Translations under genes and position numbers: made by a program | NCBI GenBank assembly: GCA_019637445.1 | Contig: JAHBVS010000001.1 | Coordinates: 2,081,586 to 2,145,585 of the forward strand | Length of the DNA: 64,000 nt | Reading direction: 5' to 3' | Source of the DNA: Gemmatimonadaceae bacterium | Lineage (GTDB): Bacteria > Gemmatimonadota > Gemmatimonadetes > Gemmatimonadales > Gemmatimonadaceae | The notes under the pieces: generated by a model | What the model was told of the DNA's origin: nothing | The model's database searches: none | Seen by the model: only the letters and a program-made list of their open reading frames with translations | In this document: positions 7,485-24,133 of the stretch, piece after piece | Numbering within the stretch: position 1 is the stretch's first letter | How the letters are laid out: every line of letters begins with the position of its first letter

Positions 7485-7966
7485 CGCGGAAGAAGAAGCC
7501 CCGTGAGGAGGTCTCGGCCGGCGGCATCGTGTTCCGCCGCGACGGCGAGCGCACGTTCTACCTGCTCATCCGCGATCCCTATCGCAACTGGGGCTTCCCG
7601 AAGGGCCATCTCGAAGCCGGCGAGGAACCATCGTCCGCCGCCCTGCGTGAGGTGGCCGAGGAGACGGGCATCGGCCGACTCGAGATCCGCGCGCCCGTGG
7701 AGACCATCGATTGGACCTTTCGGTTTCGCGGCCGCAAGATCCACAAGGTCTGCCACTTCTTCCTGATGGAGACGGAGCAGCGCCGCACCGTGCCGCAGCG
7801 TGAGGAAGGCATCACGGCTTGCCGCTGGGCCTCGTACGAACAGGCGACCAAGATGCTCGCCTACGACAACGCCCGCGCCGTGCTAGAGTCTGCACACGCA
7901 CTCCTCGCGGTCGGGCCGGATGATGCCGCGGTGCTGCCCGCCAGCGACGTCAGCGCCGCGTCCTGA
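7481..7966 (+). CDS. NUDIX hydrolase
   Basis: 161 residues from a GTG overlapping the mlaF stop. NUDIX enzymes cleave nucleoside diphosphates linked to another moiety. The full NUDIX box GX5EX7REUXEEXGU is intact (residues about 46-68: GHLEAGEEPSSAA followed by LREVAEETGI), with the metal-binding glutamates in REVAEE. Upstream, SAGGIVFRR and FYLLIRDPYRNWGFPKG fit the ADP-ribose/diadenosine polyphosphate hydrolase branch (MutT/Ap4A-like). The substrate cannot be read from sequence. Translational coupling to mlaF suggests co-expression, not necessarily a shared pathway. Confidence 0.9.
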   Translation: MTRKKKPREEVSAGGIVFRRDGERTFYLLIRDPYRNWGFPKGHLEAGEEPSSAALREVAEETGIGRLEIRAPVETIDWTFRFRGRKIHKVCHFFLMETEQRRTVPQREEGITACRWASYEQATKMLAYDNARAVLESAHALLAVGPDDAAVLPASDVSAAS

Positions 7967-7968
7967 CC

Positions 7969-8778
7969 GTGCCCGACCGCTTGCTCGGGCCCCTCTCGGC
8001 CCCAGGGATCATCGCCGCCACCGGCCGAGATCGCGCACGGGACGCCTTTCGCCGCGCCCTGCCGCGCCGCCGGGGCCACCTCTTCCTCGTGCGCACGGCG
8101 GATGAGCTCCGCCGCACCCTGGCGACCGCCTTCGTCGATGCGGTGGTGGTGGACCTCGCCCAGCCCACCGACGAGACCTGGGCGCAGGCCGCGCTGGCCC
8201 GCGACTACCCCAGCATCCCCTTCCTGGGCTATGCCCCGCTGCGTCCCGCGGACGCGGCGACGCAGGCACGGGCGGCGAAGCTTGAGCTGGTCGATTGCCT
8301 TGTGGAGGGCGCGGAGGACGAGGTGCTTCGCGAGCTGACGCTGCCGGCGACGTTTACCGTGCGCTTCGCAACTGCGCTCCAGGATGCGCCGGCACGGATC
8401 GGCCTGACGACTCCGGTGCAACTCTCGGCCTGGCGATACATCGTTGCGCAGGGTGGCCGCATCGTTCGCACCGAAGCCATCGCCGACGCGGTGGGCCTGA
8501 CGCGCGAGCACCTGAGCCGACGCTTCTCGTCGGATGGCGCTCCCAATCTGAAACGCGTGATCGACCTCGTCCGCCTGCTGGCGGCTGCGGCCTTGGCGAA
8601 GAATCCCGGCTTGGACCTGCCGGACGTCTCGCGCATCCTCGGCTTCGCCTCCGCGTCGCACCTCTCGGCCTGCTGCCAGCGGCTGTTCGGCGTGAAGAGT
8701 TCGTCGTTGGCTCGGTTGCGGCCGGCGGATCTCATGGACCGGTTCGTGAAGCAGGGGCGGGGGCGGTCTCGTTCGTAG
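7969..8778 (+). CDS. AraC-type transcriptional regulator with a receiver-like N-terminus
   Basis: 269 residues from GTG 7969, two bases after the NUDIX stop. The C-terminal 110 residues hold two helix-turn-helix motifs in the AraC layout: TEAIADAVGLTREHLSRRF and, near the end, LPDVSRILGFASASHLSACC with QRLFGV, the usual AraC signature position. The N-terminal 115 residues alternate strand and helix (HLFLVRTADELRRTL, DAVVVDLAQPTDETW, IPFLGYAPL) like a response-regulator receiver, but I do not see the full acidic pocket plus phospho-acceptor pattern, so it may be a pseudo-receiver. The target genes are unknown; it lies upstream of the atp block. Confidence 0.75.
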   Translation: MPDRLLGPLSAPGIIAATGRDRARDAFRRALPRRRGHLFLVRTADELRRTLATAFVDAVVVDLAQPTDETWAQAALARDYPSIPFLGYAPLRPADAATQARAAKLELVDCLVEGAEDEVLRELTLPATFTVRFATALQDAPARIGLTTPVQLSAWRYIVAQGGRIVRTEAIADAVGLTREHLSRRFSSDGAPNLKRVIDLVRLLAAAALAKNPGLDLPDVSRILGFASASHLSACCQRLFGVKSSSLARLRPADLMDRFVKQGRGRSRS

Positions 8779-16693: not shown

Positions 16694-16711
16694 GTGTGAC
16701 GAGTCTCACAC
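16694..16711. promoter_or_regulatory. Crp-type operator upstream of susC
   Basis: GTGTGA (16694-16699), spacer CGAGTC, TCACAC (16706-16711): a perfect inverted repeat of TGTGA-N6-TCACA form, the same architecture as the site at 9130. It is 240 bp before susC and 128 bp before the divergent DsbA-like gene. Candidate site for the Crp/Fnr protein at 52264. Confidence 0.6.
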
Positions 16712-16786
16712 CGGGTGGAAGCGGCCTCCTGACCGGCAGGCCGACCCCCCGGGGGGATGTGCTTCTGGGGCACAGGGTTGCGGCCC

Positions 16787-16805
16787 AGTTACCGAGAAGT
16801 TACCG
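16787..16805. promoter_or_regulatory. AGTTACCG direct repeats, one helical turn apart
   Basis: AGTTACCG at 16787-16794 and again at 16798-16805, 11 bp apart, so both face the same side of DNA. This is the usual arrangement for a dimer or tandem activator site. No binder can be named. Confidence 0.35.
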
Positions 16806-16953
16806 TACCACGCCTTCGGTTCCCCCCTCCTCGTTGGAGGGGTGTTGGTGTTGTGCCCGTGTTTCGCTCCCAGCGATCACGGATTCGTCGCTGGGAGACG
16901 ACGCGTGGCAGCACGTGATCGTCGGTCGGAAACCCCCTTCACGAGGTATGCAC

Positions 16954-19900
16954 ATGCTGGAACGAGTCGGGATTCGGAGGCTAGGCGCCTCCATCCTCGC
17001 AGTGCTCCTCTCGTTCGCATCAGCCGATGTCGTTTCTGCGCAGGGCGCAGCGACGATCACTGGCACGGTGACGAATGAGGCCGGGCAGCCACTCTTTGGG
17101 GCGGGCGTCGGTATCGAGGCCCTTGCCATCCAGGTGGGAACGGGCGAGGACGGCCGTTACACCATCACCATTCCGGGCGCGCGCGTTCGTGGGCAGCAGG
17201 TTGTGCTCCGGGCGCGTCTTTTTGGTTATGCGCCCCAGGTGAAGTCGATCACGGTATCAGAAGGCTCCCAGACGCACGACTTCGTGCTGCGTCAGGACGT
17301 GAACCGCCTGAGCCAGGTCGTCGTGACCGGCGTGGCGGAAGGCACCGAGAAGACCAAGGTGCCGTTCACGGTTGCCACGGTGACGGCGGCGGACATGCCG
17401 GTGCCGGGCACCAACGCCTTCGCGCAGCTGCAGGGTAAGGTCGCCGGCGTGCAGATCACGTCGACCACCGGCCGCCCGGGTTCCGACCCGGCGATCCTGC
17501 TTCGCGCGCCGCTCTCGATCAACGGCTCGGGCCGTGGTCAGGGCCCGCTGGTCATCGTTGACGGCATCATCTTCAACGGTGGCATCAATGACGTGAACCC
17601 CCAGGACATCGAGTCGATCGAGGTCGTGAAGGGTGCCGCGGCGGCCTCGCTCTACGGCTCGCGCGCGGGTAACGGCGTCATCCAGATCACCACGAAGAAG
17701 GGCAAGGGCGCCACGTCAGACGGCATCCGCTTCAACGTGAACACCGAGTACGGCCAGTCGGACATCGAGCGCGAGTATGACCTGGCGCGCGCGACGACGA
17801 TTCGCTTCAACGAGACCTACGACCGGTACTGCGTCGTCCCCTCGGGCGCCGGTGTCGGCACGCAGCGTGAGTGCACCTGGACCACGACGATGGAGCAGGA
17901 GCTCCGTCGCGTGAATGACATCCCGGGTCCGCTGACGCTCACCACCCGCACCTTCGTGGGTGACCTTGGCTTCGGCGCCCCGCCGTCCTCGACGCGCCTG
18001 CGCCACGACTTCATGTCGACGCCGTTCCCGGTGTCGTATGAGCCGATCAAGCAGCTGCTGACGAACGGCCAGTTCCTCAACACGAACGTGTCGATGTCCG
18101 GCCGCATCCAGTCGGCCAACGTCTACGCCTCGCTGTCGAACCTCTCGCAGGAAGGCTCGGTTCGCTTCCTCGATGGCTTCGTGCGTAACGGCTTCCGCCT
18201 CAATGCCGACCAGCAGATCGGTGAGGACTGGACCGTGAGCGGCACGGCCTTCTTCTCGAAGAGCAAGTCCGACGGTGGCAACTTCGTCGGCTCGAACAAC
18301 CGCGTGTGGTTCGGCCTGTCGCGTACGCCGGCGTTTGCGAACATCCTGGCGAAGGACTCGCAGGGTCGCTACATGCCGCGGCACAACCCGACGAACGTCG
18401 GCAACCAGAACTACAACCCCGTCGTCGAGGCCATTGGCGCCAAGCAGATCAACGACGACAGCCGCTTCCTCGGCTCGCTGGCGGTGAAGTACCGCCCGGT
18501 GACCTGGGCGGACGCTGAGTGGAACTTCGGCTACGACTATTCGTCGAGCTGGGGCGAGTTCCTCCGCGACAAGGGCTTCCGGACCTCGGCGCAGAACGGC
18601 CCGCAGACCAATGGCTCGTTCTCGCGCAGCAACGGCTTCTCCATCTCGTACAACACCTCGCTCAACCTGACGATGCGTCGTCAGCTGACGCAGGACATCA
18701 ACGGCACGATCTCGCTCCGTTACCTGTACGAGCAGCAGGACTTCAAGGGTGACAACCTTGGTGGCACCAACCTCGTCGTGGCCGGCCTGCGCACGGCGGA
18801 CGCCATCTCGCTGCAGGAGTCGATCGGCGTGGGCTCGAGCCAGAGCCGCATCTCGCAGATCGGCATCTTCCTCACCGGCCGCCTGGACTACCAGGGCAAG
18901 CTGATCTTTGACGGCCTGATCCGTCAGGACGGTGCGTCGGTGTTCGGTTCGGACAACCGCTGGCAGACCTACGGCCGTGGCTCGGTGCTGTATCGTCCGT
19001 CCGAGGAGGCCTGGTGGCCGGCCAAGGACATCGTGAACGAGTTGAAGCTGCGTGCGGCGGTCGGTACCGCCGGCAACCGCCCGATCTTCAGCGCCCAGTA
19101 TGAGACCCTCTCGATCGGCTCGGGCGGTACGCTGACGCCGAACGTGCTCGGCAACCCGCTGCTGGGTCCCGAGGTCATCACCGAGACGGACATCGGCTTC
19201 GACGCCGAGCTGTTCAACCGCTACGGCATCGAGTTCTCGTACATCAACGCCAAGGCGGACAACCAGATCCTGAACGTGCCGACCCCTGCGGTCACTGGCT
19301 TCGGTTCGCAGTGGCGTAACGCCGGTACGCTTGAGAACAAGATCATCGAGGCCGCGGTGAACGTGCCGATCCTCGAGGGCTTCCGCGGCGTGTCCTGGTC
19401 GGCCCGTATGGCGATGGACCGTCCGGAGAGCAAGATCACCCAGCTGGACGTGCTCCCGTACTTCGTCAGCGCCGCTGGCGCGCAGGGCACGACCTCGATG
19501 TTCCGCATCGCGGCTGGCAACGACTACGGCGTGATCTACGGCCGTGGCTTCGTGACCAAGTGCACCCAGCTGCCGGCCTCGTTCCAGGCCCGTTGCGGCG
19601 AGGGCAAGGAGTACCAGAAGAACGACGACGGCCGCATCGTGTGGGTCGGCGCCGGCAACACCTGGCGCGATGGCATCACCAAGAACCTTTGGAATGGCGC
19701 CAACCCCGGCAGCGACTCCCCCTGGGGCGTCGGCCTGAACTGGGGCATGAACATCATCGAGCGTGACTCGACCGGTACTGGCTTCAACCAGGAGCTCGGC
19801 TCGGCGATCCCCAGCATGCGCTGGTCGATGGGCCACAACGTGTCGTGGAACAAGTTCACGGGTTACATCCTGTTCGACGCCGTGCAGGGTCGTTCGGTGT

Positions 19901-20322
19901 TCAATCTCGTGAAGCACTGGAACTACGGTGACTTCTCCAATGGTGACGTGGACCAGTTCGGCAAGTCGGTCGAGAACGCCAAGCCGATCGGCTACTACTG
20001 GCGTGGCGCGCCGCCCGACGCGACTGGCGTCGGCGGTCTGTATGACTTCCTCGCGCCCACCAGCCACACCACCGAGGATGCCTCGTTCGTGAAGCTCCGC
20101 GAGCTCTCCGTTGGCTACCGCATCGGCCGCCTCGGCCGCTACGGTGACTGGACGGTGAACGTCGTGGGTCGCAACCTGCTGACCTGGTCGGACTACTCGG
20201 GCTTCGATCCCGAGACCGGCCTGGGCGGTGGCTCGAACGGCTCGGGCATCCTGAACGCCGCGGATGCGTTCAACTTCCCGAACCTCCGCACGTTCACGCT
20301 GCAGTTCAACGTTGGCTTCTGA
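16954..20322 (+). CDS. SusC/RagA-family TonB-linked outer-membrane transporter
   Basis: 1122 residues. Two in-frame ATGs exist (16948, 16954); GAGG at 16943-16946 is spaced 7 bases from 16954, so that start is used. Signal peptide ends at VVSAQ. Residues about 33-110: carboxypeptidase-regulatory-like domain (ITGTVTNEAGQPLFGAGVG, GEDGRYTITIPG). Residues about 115-240: plug domain with SusC pattern (RLSQVVVTGVAEGTEKTK, ALQGKVAGVQI-type LQGKVAGVQITSTTGRPG, VIVDGIIFNGGINDVNPQDI, ESIEVVKGAAAASLYGSRAG, NGVIQITTKKG). The remainder is a 22-strand barrel ending in TFTLQFNVGF with a terminal aromatic. With SusD it imports glycans or peptides across the outer membrane using TonB energy; the substrate is unknown. 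Confidence 0.95.
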   Translation: MLERVGIRRLGASILAVLLSFASADVVSAQGAATITGTVTNEAGQPLFGAGVGIEALAIQVGTGEDGRYTITIPGARVRGQQVVLRARLFGYAPQVKSITVSEGSQTHDFVLRQDVNRLSQVVVTGVAEGTEKTKVPFTVATVTAADMPVPGTNAFAQLQGKVAGVQITSTTGRPGSDPAILLRAPLSINGSGRGQGPLVIVDGIIFNGGINDVNPQDIESIEVVKGAAAASLYGSRAGNGVIQITTKKGKGATSDGIRFNVNTEYGQSDIEREYDLARATTIRFNETYDRYCVVPSGAGVGTQRECTWTTTMEQELRRVNDIPGPLTLTTRTFVGDLGFGAPPSSTRLRHDFMSTPFPVSYEPIKQLLTNGQFLNTNVSMSGRIQSANVYASLSNLSQEGSVRFLDGFVRNGFRLNADQQIGEDWTVSGTAFFSKSKSDGGNFVGSNNRVWFGLSRTPAFANILAKDSQGRYMPRHNPTNVGNQNYNPVVEAIGAKQINDDSRFLGSLAVKYRPVTWADAEWNFGYDYSSSWGEFLRDKGFRTSAQNGPQTNGSFSRSNGFSISYNTSLNLTMRRQLTQDINGTISLRYLYEQQDFKGDNLGGTNLVVAGLRTADAISLQESIGVGSSQSRISQIGIFLTGRLDYQGKLIFDGLIRQDGASVFGSDNRWQTYGRGSVLYRPSEEAWWPAKDIVNELKLRAAVGTAGNRPIFSAQYETLSIGSGGTLTPNVLGNPLLGPEVITETDIGFDAELFNRYGIEFSYINAKADNQILNVPTPAVTGFGSQWRNAGTLENKIIEAAVNVPILEGFRGVSWSARMAMDRPESKITQLDVLPYFVSAAGAQGTTSMFRIAAGNDYGVIYGRGFVTKCTQLPASFQARCGEGKEYQKNDDGRIVWVGAGNTWRDGITKNLWNGANPGSDSPWGVGLNWGMNIIERDSTGTGFNQELGSAIPSMRWSMGHNVSWNKFTGYILFDAVQGRSVFNLVKHWNYGDFSNGDVDQFGKSVENAKPIGYYWRGAPPDATGVGGLYDFLAPTSHTTEDASFVKLRELSVGYRIGRLGRYGDWTVNVVGRNLLTWSDYSGFDPETGLGGGSNGSGILNAADAFNFPNLRTFTLQFNVGF

Positions 20323-20335
20323 CGACAGCGCCTGG

Positions 20336-20361
20336 CCGGGCGGCAGCAACTTGCCGCCCGG
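20336..20361 (+). promoter_or_regulatory. susC-susD intercistronic hairpin
   Basis: Stem CCGGGCGGCA (20336-20345) pairs perfectly with TGCCGCCCGG (20352-20361), loop GCAACT. It lies between the susC stop and the susD ribosome-binding site (TTGAGGAG, 20375-20382). No T-run follows, so it may be a partial attenuator or an mRNA-stability element setting the SusC:SusD ratio. Confidence 0.5.
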
Positions 20362-20392
20362 TCGGGTCCCCTTCTTGAGGAGTTACTTCACG

Positions 20393-21994
20393 ATGCGATT
20401 CAAGCTTCGGCACCTCGGGGTTCTCGCGCTGGCGTCCGTCGCAATGACGGCCTGCGCTGATAACCTCCAGGTCTCCAACGAGAACAACCCGGACCTGACG
20501 CGTGTGTACGCGGATCCGTCCGGCGTGGAGGGCGTCGTTTCGACGCTCTACCGCTCGTATCACCAGGGCACGGCAGGCAACGGCGGCATCGAGCCGCAGT
20601 CTGATATGCTGTCCCTCGAGAGCTATTCGGCTCTCGCGAACTTCGGTAACGGCATTCGCTCCGCAATCCCGCGTCTGCCGATCAACAACCAGCGTGGCAA
20701 CCAGGTCAATGGTGGCAACCAGGCGGAGTGGAACAGCCTTTCGCGCCTGATGCGTACGTCCGCCACCGTCGTGCAGGCGATCGACGCCTACCTCGACAAG
20801 GATGCGACGTTGGGCACGCCAAGCCTCGACCTGCGCGCCCGCGCCTTCGCCATGATGGTGAACGGCCTGGCGATGGGTACGCTGGCGACGATCTACGACT
20901 CGGTGGCCATCGCCACAGCCCAGACGCCGACCTCGGCGATCCCGGGCTTCGTCGGTCCCGCTGAAGCGATGACGACGGCGCTGTCGGTGCTCGACTCCGC
21001 CATCGCCATCATCCAGTCTGCTCCGTCGACGGCCGATGCGACGATTCCGCTCGAGTGGATGGGTGGAACGGCGCTGACGCCTGCGCAGCTGGTTCGTTTG
21101 ATTCGGACCTACAAGGCGAAGTTCCGGATCTCGGTTGCGCGCACGCCTGGCGCGACGATTGACTGGGCCTTGGTGTTGGCCGACGCCACCAACGGCATCA
21201 CGGCTGACCACCAGATCGCGTTGGGTGGCACGTGGTCGTCGGCGATGGACGCTGGGCAGTACCATGTGCCCGGCAGCTGGCACCAGATCTCGCTGATGTA
21301 CAACGGCATGGCTGACAACTCCGGCAACTTCGTGGCGTTCTCGGCCGTCCCGCTGCTTTCGCGTCCCGGCCCGACGACGCTCGTCGTGACGCCGGACACC
21401 CGTTGGCCGGCCGGTGCGACCCGCGCCGCCCAGCAGGCGAACTCCAGCCTGCCGCTGCCGGCGGGGCAGTACATCGCCAACCGTCAGGGTGAGGACTTCT
21501 TCGACGGCACGAACCCCTGGGGTTCCTCGCAGTATGAGAGCCGCCGTTGGTGGTCCATCCGCGACAATGGCGGCGTGGGCATCTATTCGTTCATCGACGT
21601 TGACGAGATCAACATGATCGCGGCCGAGGCGAATCTCGCCCTTGGCAACGGTCCGGCGGCGATGACGCTGGTCAACAACTCGCGTACGCAGCACGGCCTT
21701 GCGGCCTTCGCGGATCCGGCCGGTACGGCTCCGGACTGCGTGCCCACGCTCCCCACGGGCGCCTGCGGCAACCTGCGCGAGGCCATGAAGTACGAGAAGC
21801 GCATGGAGACCCAGCTGACGGGCTACATGGCGTGGTTCCTCGATTCCCGCCGCTGGGGCGACCTGGTGCAGGGCACGGTGCTGGAGTGGCCGGTCCCGAA
21901 CGCGGAGATGGATACGCGTAACCAGGCGTTCTACGACATGCCGTACCCGGGTGCTACGGGCAAGACGGCTGGCGTCGGGACCTACGGGTACTGA
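20393..21994 (+). CDS. SusD/RagB-family outer-membrane lipoprotein
   Basis: 533 residues from ATG 20393, preceded by GAGGAG. Lipobox VAMTAC gives a lipid-anchored cysteine. SusD is the hinged lid of the SusC barrel and binds the nutrient. Helical TPR-like body: ADPSGVEGVVSTLYRSYHQG, ARAFAMMVNGLAMGTLATIY, ALTPAQLVRLIRTYKAKFRI; C-terminal SusD-type DEINMIAAEANLALGNGPAA, NNSRTQHGLAAF, EAMKYEKRMETQLTG, WFLDSRRWGDLVQGT, which is the most conserved SusD motif (YERR...FEG...WDL...R). The order susC-susD on one strand is standard. Confidence 0.93.
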   Translation: MRFKLRHLGVLALASVAMTACADNLQVSNENNPDLTRVYADPSGVEGVVSTLYRSYHQGTAGNGGIEPQSDMLSLESYSALANFGNGIRSAIPRLPINNQRGNQVNGGNQAEWNSLSRLMRTSATVVQAIDAYLDKDATLGTPSLDLRARAFAMMVNGLAMGTLATIYDSVAIATAQTPTSAIPGFVGPAEAMTTALSVLDSAIAIIQSAPSTADATIPLEWMGGTALTPAQLVRLIRTYKAKFRISVARTPGATIDWALVLADATNGITADHQIALGGTWSSAMDAGQYHVPGSWHQISLMYNGMADNSGNFVAFSAVPLLSRPGPTTLVVTPDTRWPAGATRAAQQANSSLPLPAGQYIANRQGEDFFDGTNPWGSSQYESRRWWSIRDNGGVGIYSFIDVDEINMIAAEANLALGNGPAAMTLVNNSRTQHGLAAFADPAGTAPDCVPTLPTGACGNLREAMKYEKRMETQLTGYMAWFLDSRRWGDLVQGTVLEWPVPNAEMDTRNQAFYDMPYPGATGKTAGVGTYGY

Positions 21995-21997
21995 TCG

Positions 21998-22525
21998 ATG
22001 TTCATCCTCGGAGCCACGGTGTCCTTCCTGCGCGGTCTCGCCTCGTCCTCACGGATGCGGCGTAACGTCGGGCGGGTAGCCGTGGCTTCCGCGGCGCTCC
22101 TGTCCAGTGGTTGCTACCAGTACACGGCGACAGAGCCGGGCCGGCCTGTGACGGATCAGCGGGTCGAGCTTCGGTTGAATGATCAGGGTCGGGTTGCGAT
22201 GAATCGCACCCTGGGCCCTGGCGCCAGTACCGTCGAAGGCCGTGTCGTTGAGCAGACGGCTGAGTGGTATTCGATGGCGGTGTATCGGTTGACCAATGTG
22301 CGCGGCGACGTCTTCACGTGGACCGGCGAGATGGTGAATGTGCCGGTTGACGGTGTGGAGATGGTGTCCGAGCGCAGCCTGGACAAACAGCGGAGTGTCG
22401 TGGCGGTGGCATCCGCCGCGGGGGCGTTCGCTGTATTCGTGATGTCTCGCAGCCTGATCGGTGGTGGCCGGGATACGTCTCCCGGTGTTCCGCCGGAGGG
22501 TCAATCGGTTCGTTTGTTGCCCTGA
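21998..22525 (+). CDS. Small lipoprotein of unknown function in the sus cluster
   Basis: 175 residues from ATG 21998, three bases after susD. A start at 22055 (MRRNVGRVAVASAALLSSGC) gives a better lipoprotein signal peptide; neither start has a good ribosome-binding site. The lipobox is LSSGC. The mature domain is beta-rich (QRVELRLNDQGRVAMNRTLG, VEGRVVEQTAEWYSMAVYRL, VFTWTGEMVNVPVDGVEMV) and a C-terminal hydrophobic stretch (SVVAVASAAGAFAVFVM) may insert in the membrane. I do not recognise the family. Position suggests a role with the SusCD transporter. Confidence 0.6.
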   Translation: MFILGATVSFLRGLASSSRMRRNVGRVAVASAALLSSGCYQYTATEPGRPVTDQRVELRLNDQGRVAMNRTLGPGASTVEGRVVEQTAEWYSMAVYRLTNVRGDVFTWTGEMVNVPVDGVEMVSERSLDKQRSVVAVASAAGAFAVFVMSRSLIGGGRDTSPGVPPEGQSVRLLP

Positions 22526-22569
22526 AGCACTGGGCATACACTCCTTTAATGCACTTTTCGGAGCCCTTC

Positions 22570-23334
22570 ATGCGATTTCTCCGTATCCTTCCACTGGCAG
22601 CCTTGGTGTTCGCGGGCGCGTGCGCAGAAGATGCGTCCGTGACCGTCGCCAACCGGCCGCCGCTGGCGTACATCCGTTACGTCCACGCGGTGACCGATGC
22701 AGCGGCCTTGGATTTCAAGTTCGTTGACCAGATCGAGTACTCGCCGCACTACGCGAACTCGACCTACCGCACCATCGGCATCTATCAGGGTGTCGAGGCT
22801 GGTAACCGTCAGTGGAAGGTCTTCCGCAACTCCACGGACATCAACATCGCGCAGCAGGTCGTTGCCGAGGGCACGACGAACTTCGTCGCCGGCACCCGGT
22901 ACACGATCCTGCACCGTGGCACGATGGCGTCGAACTCCGTCGTCCTGATCACGGAAACCCTCCCGACCCAGGATGCCGGCACGCACATCAGCGTGACCAA
23001 CGCCTCGATGGCCGCTCAGGACGTGTTCATCGGTGCGCCGGCTGGCACGCCGCTGTTCGCGAACGTGGCCACCGGGACCAAGACGACGTACGCGGCGCGT
23101 GCCGCGCTGACGACGTTCACGCTGCACACGGCCGCCAACGGCACCTTGGTGTCGCTGGCCAGCGCCACGCCGTTCGTCGGGCTCGCAGGGACGGAGACCG
23201 CCGATCCGATCGGTGGCTACAGCGTGGCCGGTTCGCAGATGTCCGCGTTCCTCTTCGCGCCGGGCACCGGCGCGGCGGCGAACTCTGTTTCGATCGTGAT
23301 GGATCGCCAGCCGCCGCCGACCGTTCCGGAATAA
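22570..23334 (+). CDS. DUF4397-like lipoprotein
   Basis: 254 residues from ATG 22570, with GGAG six bases upstream; an ATG at 22549 lies before that ribosome-binding site. Lipobox FAGAC. The body shows the DUF4397 pattern of repeated beta-sandwich units: LAYIRYVHAVTDAAALDFKF, YRTIGIYQGVEAGNRQWKVF, GTRYTILHRGTMASNSVVLI, AGTHISVTNASMAAQDVFIG. DUF4397 proteins are cell-surface or periplasmic and often lie near polysaccharide or adhesion genes; their biochemical role is not established. Fourth gene of the sus cluster. Confidence 0.75.
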   Translation: MRFLRILPLAALVFAGACAEDASVTVANRPPLAYIRYVHAVTDAAALDFKFVDQIEYSPHYANSTYRTIGIYQGVEAGNRQWKVFRNSTDINIAQQVVAEGTTNFVAGTRYTILHRGTMASNSVVLITETLPTQDAGTHISVTNASMAAQDVFIGAPAGTPLFANVATGTKTTYAARAALTTFTLHTAANGTLVSLASATPFVGLAGTETADPIGGYSVAGSQMSAFLFAPGTGAAANSVSIVMDRQPPPTVPE

Positions 23335-23344
23335 GCGGACGGGC

Positions 23345-24133
23345 GTGCTCGGTTCTGGCAGCACAGCTCGCGGCACGCGGGGCCCTCGCCTGAGGGTCCC
23401 GCGTGTTGCGTTGTTTTTTGTTCTTGCACTCGGCCTCGGCGCCCTTTCGGCCGCCGACGCCGCAGCCCAGGTGGTCCGCGGCCGCATCATCTCCAACCAG
23501 TCCCGGACGCCAATGGCGAACGCGACGGTCGAGGCCCTGGACACGCTACGGCAGGTGGTCGCCGCGGCACGGTCCGACTCGGCAGGCCAGTTCATGCTGC
23601 ACGTGACGACCCTCGGCGAGTTCCGGATTCGCATCCGGCGCATCGGCATTACGCCGACCCTGACGGACGCCCTGCAGTTTGTCGATCGCGATACCGTGGA
23701 CGTGGATCTCCTGGTCGACGAGAGCCCTGCGATCCTCGAGGAGAGTCGCACCACGGAGACCATGAGTGTCGCCACGGAGGAGCGGCTGCGGAACGCGCGG
23801 AGCCGTGGATGGCGCGTCTATCCCCCCGAGCGGGTCCGTCCGATCCGTGAGCGGGCGATGAACCTCGATGCGATGCTGAAGGCGTTGGGATTGTCCAGCG
23901 TTATGATCTCGGCCAACTGCATCCGGAGCCTGGTCACGAACGGCTGCATGACGGTGTTCATCGACGACCAGTACTTTGGGCAGGTGACCTTCAACCAGAT
24001 CAACGTCCGCGACATCGAGTTCGTCGCGGTCATCGGGCCCACCGAGGCCCTGATTACCTACGGCAATCGTGCGCAGCACGGCGTGGTGATGCTCTACACC
24101 GCCCGTATGCAAGACCGTCGCCCGCCGCAGTGA
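23345..24133 (+). CDS. Barrel-less SusC-like protein (regulatory domain plus TonB plug)
   Basis: 262 residues from GTG 23345. After a signal peptide (VALFFVLALGLGALSAADAA) comes a carboxypeptidase-regulatory-like domain (VVRGRIISNQSRTPMANATV, RSDSAGQFMLHV). The C-terminal third reads like a receptor plug: TVFIDDQYFGQVTFNQINVR, DIEFVAVIGPTEALITYGNR, HGVVMLYT align with the plug of the SusC protein in this window (VIVDGIIFNGGINDVNPQDI, ESIEVVKGAAAASLYGSRAG, NGVIQITT). The gene then stops; there is no barrel. Two cysteines (ANC, NGC) precede the plug strand. It may be a soluble periplasmic plug, a TonB partner or a decoy. The frame is intact. Confidence 0.75.
   Translation: MLGSGSTARGTRGPRLRVPRVALFFVLALGLGALSAADAAAQVVRGRIISNQSRTPMANATVEALDTLRQVVAAARSDSAGQFMLHVTTLGEFRIRIRRIGITPTLTDALQFVDRDTVDVDLLVDESPAILEESRTTETMSVATEERLRNARSRGWRVYPPERVRPIRERAMNLDAMLKALGLSSVMISANCIRSLVTNGCMTVFIDDQYFGQVTFNQINVRDIEFVAVIGPTEALITYGNRAQHGVVMLYTARMQDRRPPQ

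Follow-up and report, generated by a model that had tools for sequence, protein, structure and literature searches.

The window, by which we mean the whole analysed stretch of 64,000 nucleotides, carries on its forward strand a susCD cassette of five genes, and the last of these, at 23345–24133, reads from a GTG codon and encodes a protein of 262 residues that stops after its plug domain (Table 1). An initial annotation of this DNA had put the gene downstream of susCD, which is correct, but it does not follow susCD directly, as the genes at 21998–22525 and 22549–23334 (DUF4397) intervene. Both encode lipoproteins that are fixed partners of SusC and SusD in many Gemmatimonadaceae, even where the plug-only gene is absent; searches of the PDB gave no match for the smaller one and no informative relatives for the DUF4397 protein. 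At its other end, the plug-only gene is overlapped at its stop by 4 bp by a TPM gene, which begins at 24130.

Table 1. Features of the susCD cassette and of its plug-only gene (positions in the window).
Feature	Position	Strand	Basis and remarks
Cassette SusC	16696..20322	+	TIGR04056 (468 bits) and Pfam Plug (4e-15); translation may start further downstream
Cassette SusD	20264..21994	+	Weak Pfam SusD_RagB match (0.11); position and conservation in relatives; real start likely downstream
Small lipoprotein	21998..22525	+	Invariant lipobox C39 and conserved position; C-terminal hydrophobic segment; no known family
DUF4397 lipoprotein	22549..23334	+	Pfam, 2e-10; conserved position
Plug-only gene	23345..24133	+	Signal peptide, NTE (CarboxypepD_reg), degenerate TonB-box linker and plug domain, without barrel
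Signal peptide region	23345..23470	+	Sequence; start in relatives at about the same place
NTE-like domain	23474..23710	+	Pfam CarboxypepD_reg (PF13620), aa 44–122, E 4e-9, above cut-off
Linker at the TonB-box position	23726..23761	+	aa 128–139, ILEESRTTETMS; 28-member alignment and motif check; low pLDDT
Plug domain	23753..24133	+	aa 137–262; sequence match to SusC at aa 206–254
Invariant Cys pair	23918..23947	+	aa 192 and 201, C-x8-C; family-specific loop (28-member alignment)
Terminator-like hairpin, 19-bp, with T-tract	23369..23420	+	Overlaps the first codons of the plug-only gene; z -4.55

The GTG start is uncertain because a hairpin with a T-tract sits inside the first codons, and translation could begin either at GTG 23345 or at the in-frame CTG 23390, which would give MRVPRVALFFVLALGLGALSAADAAAQ, a cleaner signal peptide than the one obtained from GTG. 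The hairpin at 23369–23420 is GC-rich and is followed by TTGTTTTTTG. It looks like a terminator of the four upstream genes of the susCD operon, so that expression of the plug-only and TPM genes may be weaker or depend on read-through. As a terminator-like hairpin near the gene start was seen in only 3 of the 18 relatives examined, it is not a conserved feature.

The order SusC, SusD, small lipoprotein, DUF4397 lipoprotein and plug-only gene was found in all 26 relatives with upstream DNA, read as far upstream as each contig reaches, and three further loci begin at a contig end. The survey of related genomes thus found the same barrel-less gene beside susCD, and its place relative to susC and susD is conserved and co-linear. 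Mostly, the block is flanked by dsbA/kdt and by TPM-LemA, as in the window, and we also considered that the gene might belong to the downstream TPM/LemA block. Four loci (L053, L057, L068 and L069) depart from this layout in that the five genes remain together but are separated by kdt/dsbA from a more distant TPM; the plug-only gene stays with susCD where TPM is apart and therefore belongs to the susCD cassette, and TPM/LemA was rejected as its primary association. Genus g40 has, in addition, a second plug-only copy that stands alone among metabolic genes, at the same place in two genomes (L095 and L096), and a search of about 4 kb to each side of these lone copies revealed no SusC homologue.

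The product of the plug-only gene is a secreted version of the SusC N-terminus, NTE and plug, that lacks the barrel. The carboxypeptidase-regulatory domain that the initial annotation had recognized after the signal peptide is confirmed by the Pfam match listed in Table 1, and its observation that a further segment tracks the plug of the cluster's SusC is borne out by three comparisons. In a BLASTP alignment with the SusC of the window, residues 217–254 pair with SusC residues 298–335 at 37% identity (E 6e-5). A profile of 12 relatives, A1, matches solved SusC/RagA proteins, best of all Bt1763 (BT1763, 5t3r; E 2.2e-9), and the match is co-linear from profile positions 11–241 to SusC residues 11–232, a span that takes in signal peptide, NTE, TonB-box position and plug. 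The HMM–HMM comparison between the family (28 members) and the N-termini of cassette SusCs, finally, covers 206 columns with a probability of 98.8 (E 8e-16), and the family ends where the SusC barrel would start. The proposed HMM search for a plug domain thus succeeded against SusC itself but not with Pfam Plug, which was not called on the protein in a Pfam scan that found CarboxypepD_reg alone, and which scores in only 1 of the 28 relatives (E 0.019); as this model fails on the family, a plain HMM scan would have missed the plug. The NCBIfam SusC/RagA model matches residues 206–254 weakly (E 0.04), the protein reaches 12.1 bits against TIGR04056, whose curated cut-off is 368 bits, and 18 of the 28 family members match TIGR04056 weakly, with a best E of 4e-7. 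At the sequence level, only the final 50 residues of the plug domain are conserved with SusC.

Structure prediction agrees with this assignment. The model of the whole protein (mean pLDDT 87, pTM 0.54) has two domains joined by a flexible linker of low pLDDT at the TonB-box position. Its N-terminal half resembles transthyretin-like domains, among them the NTE of SusCdex BT3090, onto which residues 1–90 superimpose with a Z of 10.9 and an rmsd of 2.2 over 77 aligned residues (9hfj). As the fold search with the whole protein matched only the NTE half, the plug half was modelled separately with AlphaFold2 (pLDDT 88, pTM 0.81). All 50 Foldseek matches listed for this half were TonB-dependent transporters, the best with an E of 3.8e-3, and VIA-align placed it on the Bt1763 plug (6zlt) with a Z of 8.6 and an rmsd of 3.2 over 103 aligned residues. 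The predicted fold of the C-terminal part is thus that of a TonB-transporter plug, as suspected from the letters alone, and not an unrelated one. Compared with SusC/RagA (Bt1763, 5t3r/6zlt; TIGR04056), the plug-only protein is alike in the order of signal peptide, NTE, TonB-box position and plug; it differs by the absence of the 22-strand barrel and, in the window's member, by a TonB box that is degenerate (LEESRTTETM).

Orthologues were found at E < 1e-55 in about 60 of 179 genomes of the same family, in the six genera g1, g13, g20, g39, g40 and g45, one genome having two tandem copies (G156). In a phylum-wide sample, matches at E 1e-30 occurred in 49 of 395 genomes and 7 of 138 genera, all of them Gemmatimonadaceae, and the named loci come from Gemmatimonadetes MAGs, many named after a lake, fen or groundwater. 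Nearly all open frames of the orthologues span about 200 to 560 residues from stop to stop, and in every frame read, apart from those cut by a contig end, the gene stops directly behind the plug. Twelve close pairs gave dN/dS values of 0.11–0.36, and the gene is thus under purifying selection. These data bear on the question whether the protein is a SusC duplicate that has shed its barrel and is now decaying, for which it can be said that the nearest plug is indeed that of the cassette SusC, as duplication predicts. However, a remnant is difficult to reconcile with the strong purifying selection and with orthologues of comparable length across about 60 Gemmatimonadaceae genomes, and in the 1.5 kb that follow the gene, neither 17 relatives nor the window showed any barrel sequence. 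A truncated pseudogene or a frameshift is therefore out, in line with the initial annotation, which had noted neither barrel nor frameshift and had named relatives that run on into a barrel as one observation that would refute it; no such relative was found. Ongoing decay of the gene is thus highly improbable, whereas duplication as its origin is plausible.

With respect to this origin, four-gene cassettes that do without the plug-only gene are informative. Twelve of them were read, 11 in other genera and one in G010, a genome of the same genus, in which the cassette belongs to the other SusC lineage. A tree of the SusCs from 23 plug-bearing and 12 plug-less cassettes, the latter a hand-picked and non-exhaustive set, separates the two groups by a single branch with a support of 100/99. 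The presence of the plug-only gene tracks the SusC lineage and not the species, and as only one branch separates the groups, the pattern fits a single gain of the gene in one particular SusC lineage of the Gemmatimonadaceae. In the genome of the window, the only other convincing match to the plug-only protein is the cassette SusC (E 2.6e-6). Within the loci, the plug-only profile mostly scores 22–30 bits against the plugs of cassette-type SusCs and 14–17 bits against those of second SusCs. The simplest origin would be that the cassette SusC was duplicated and that one copy then lost its barrel. Pairwise distances of the plug-only gene correlate with those of SusC at 0.84, no better than with those of the TPM gene (0.79), and are thus uninformative as evidence of co-evolution.

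The plug-only gene is thus a conserved and selected companion that was added to one SusC/SusD importer lineage, and its product probably acts on the importer from the periplasm. It is not one half of a split transporter that would supply a missing plug, as the SusCs in plug-bearing cassettes are complete: the cassette SusC retains its own NTE, a TonB box (LSQVVVTG), a complete plug and the barrel, and the plug-only protein must therefore be an accessory. Our preferred reading, to which we would give a probability of only about 0.38, is that it acts in trans on the SusC of its own cassette by docking to it and modulating its gating; gating of the neighbouring transporter had been raised by the initial annotation and would fit the genetics. 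The protein would dock at the periplasmic mouth of the SusC barrel, either via its plug domain or via its NTE paired with the NTE of SusC. It might, for example, seal or brace the barrel while TonB pulls out the plug of SusC, or it might aid the re-insertion of this plug, and it may also tune NTE contacts. In Bt1763, the plug is outside the barrel in the closed state and has to re-insert, the SusD lid is thought to hold the seal in the meantime, and removing the NTE causes a dominant-negative defect that was ascribed to biogenesis or cell function, its cause being unknown (PMC7782687). A soluble NTE and plug beside SusC could act on exactly such a step. In favour of the docking model are the co-linear homology to the SusC N-terminus, the plug and NTE folds, the fixed place in the cassette, the tie to one SusC lineage, the resemblance of its plug to those of cassette-type SusCs and the purifying selection. 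Against it stand the lone copies of genus g40 and the limitation of the SusC conservation to the last 50 plug residues; moreover, as the cassette SusC has a complete plug, no additional plug is obviously needed.

A further point concerns the loop that distinguishes this family. In the 28-member alignment, its own invariant residues, namely a GW, the Cys pair and the positions F/A and T, differ from those of SusC plugs, and where SusC plugs have an apical RG segment, this family has the Cys pair, residues 192 and 201, which are presumably disulfide-linked. Since the apical segment has become a Cys loop, the protein may not fit the barrel lumen, which weakens the docking model. A closely related idea is that the free soluble plug enters or caps the SusC barrel once the tethered plug has been pulled out. 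We regard such a second plug in trans as unlikely; if true, a tethered and a free plug would together seal a very large outer-membrane pore. Caution is also advised by the isolated FepA plug, which was reported to be unfolded (PMC11658791), but the Cys loop and the extra helices of the plug-only protein may stabilise its free plug fold where the FepA plug unfolds.

Roles other than gating of SusC have to be weighed. The plug fold without a barrel might have become a ligand-binding domain of a periplasmic handler that takes substrate at the SusC exit. SusC plugs touch substrate (PMC7782687), the family's own invariant residues suggest a new binding role, and stand-alone plug-only copies exist in genus g40, but the NTE is without a known ligand, and we consider this role somewhat unlikely. 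The protein could also aid the folding, assembly or stability of SusC, alone or together with the two cassette lipoproteins, for example by filling the nascent barrel until the plug of SusC is placed. Such a function would agree with the fixed membership of the gene in the cassette and with the dominant-negative Bt1763 NTE deletion, if that effect is one on biogenesis (PMC7782687), but the sister cassettes do without a plug-only gene, and an assembly role appears about as unlikely to us as a second plug. A little more doubtful still is the decoy function that the initial annotation had also considered, in which a soluble NTE, TonB box and plug would bind the C-terminal domain of TonB and cut the TonB supply of transporters. 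Competition in trans by the signalling domain of FecA is a precedent (PMC9249621), and in 24 of the 28 aligned members V-x-[VIT], mostly V-x-[VI], is kept after the NTE, in a segment that is predicted to be flexible. However, this motif may merely be the end of the NTE, a decoy has no need for a conserved plug domain, and in the window's protein the motif is lost. As its TonB box is degenerate, competition for TonB is an unlikely role of this particular protein.

In keyword searches of open-access papers, we found no description of a barrel-less or plug-only TonB protein in a SusCD locus. There are, however, known proteins with which the proposed action on SusC can be compared. The T9SS Plug faces the periplasm as a protein of its own and closes SprA, a translocon with a very large barrel in the outer membrane (PMC10994853); this is only a functional analogy for acting in trans, and translocon and system differ. 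The separately supplied signalling domain of FecA that competes in trans in the periplasm (PMC9249621) is likewise an N-terminal part uncoupled from its TonB-dependent transporter, but the construct is artificial, contains an STN domain instead of NTE and plug, and targets an anti-sigma factor. How the outer-membrane seal of SusC-type transporters is kept in the absence of the plug and which function the NTE has are regarded as open questions (PMC7782687), and a separate and selected NTE–plug protein beside SusC represents a natural experiment on both.

Other short proteins with a similar layout came up in the course of the analysis. Secreted proteins that combine CarboxypepD_reg with a plug half are encoded in Gemmatimonadaceae and relatives (L034 and L035, also L028, L030 and L031); some of them end in CGxxxxWTR, and those of L034 and L035 score above the cut-off of Pfam Plug. 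The latter two, from Gemmatimonadaceae, share the two-domain, barrel-less layout with the plug-only family but differ from it by this C-terminal motif, and their similarity to it is low. Barrel-less plugs may be common in the phylum. Downstream of a plug-less cassette (L086, about 7929–8522), a secreted protein without an NTE contains the plug-like stretch PPTLVVLDGKPMGDLETLRSVIASTVDEVRYME. In the genome of the window itself (L099, C3, about 19.8–20.2 kb), an open reading frame from position 984 encodes a candidate for another barrel-less mini-plug, a putative lipoprotein of about 107 residues (MLFGCAPERA...), the second half of which, LHLVDGKIV...VDTLRGAAAVSLYGSRGALGAIVVTTRE, resembles the C-terminal half of the SusC plug, with an E of only 0.22.
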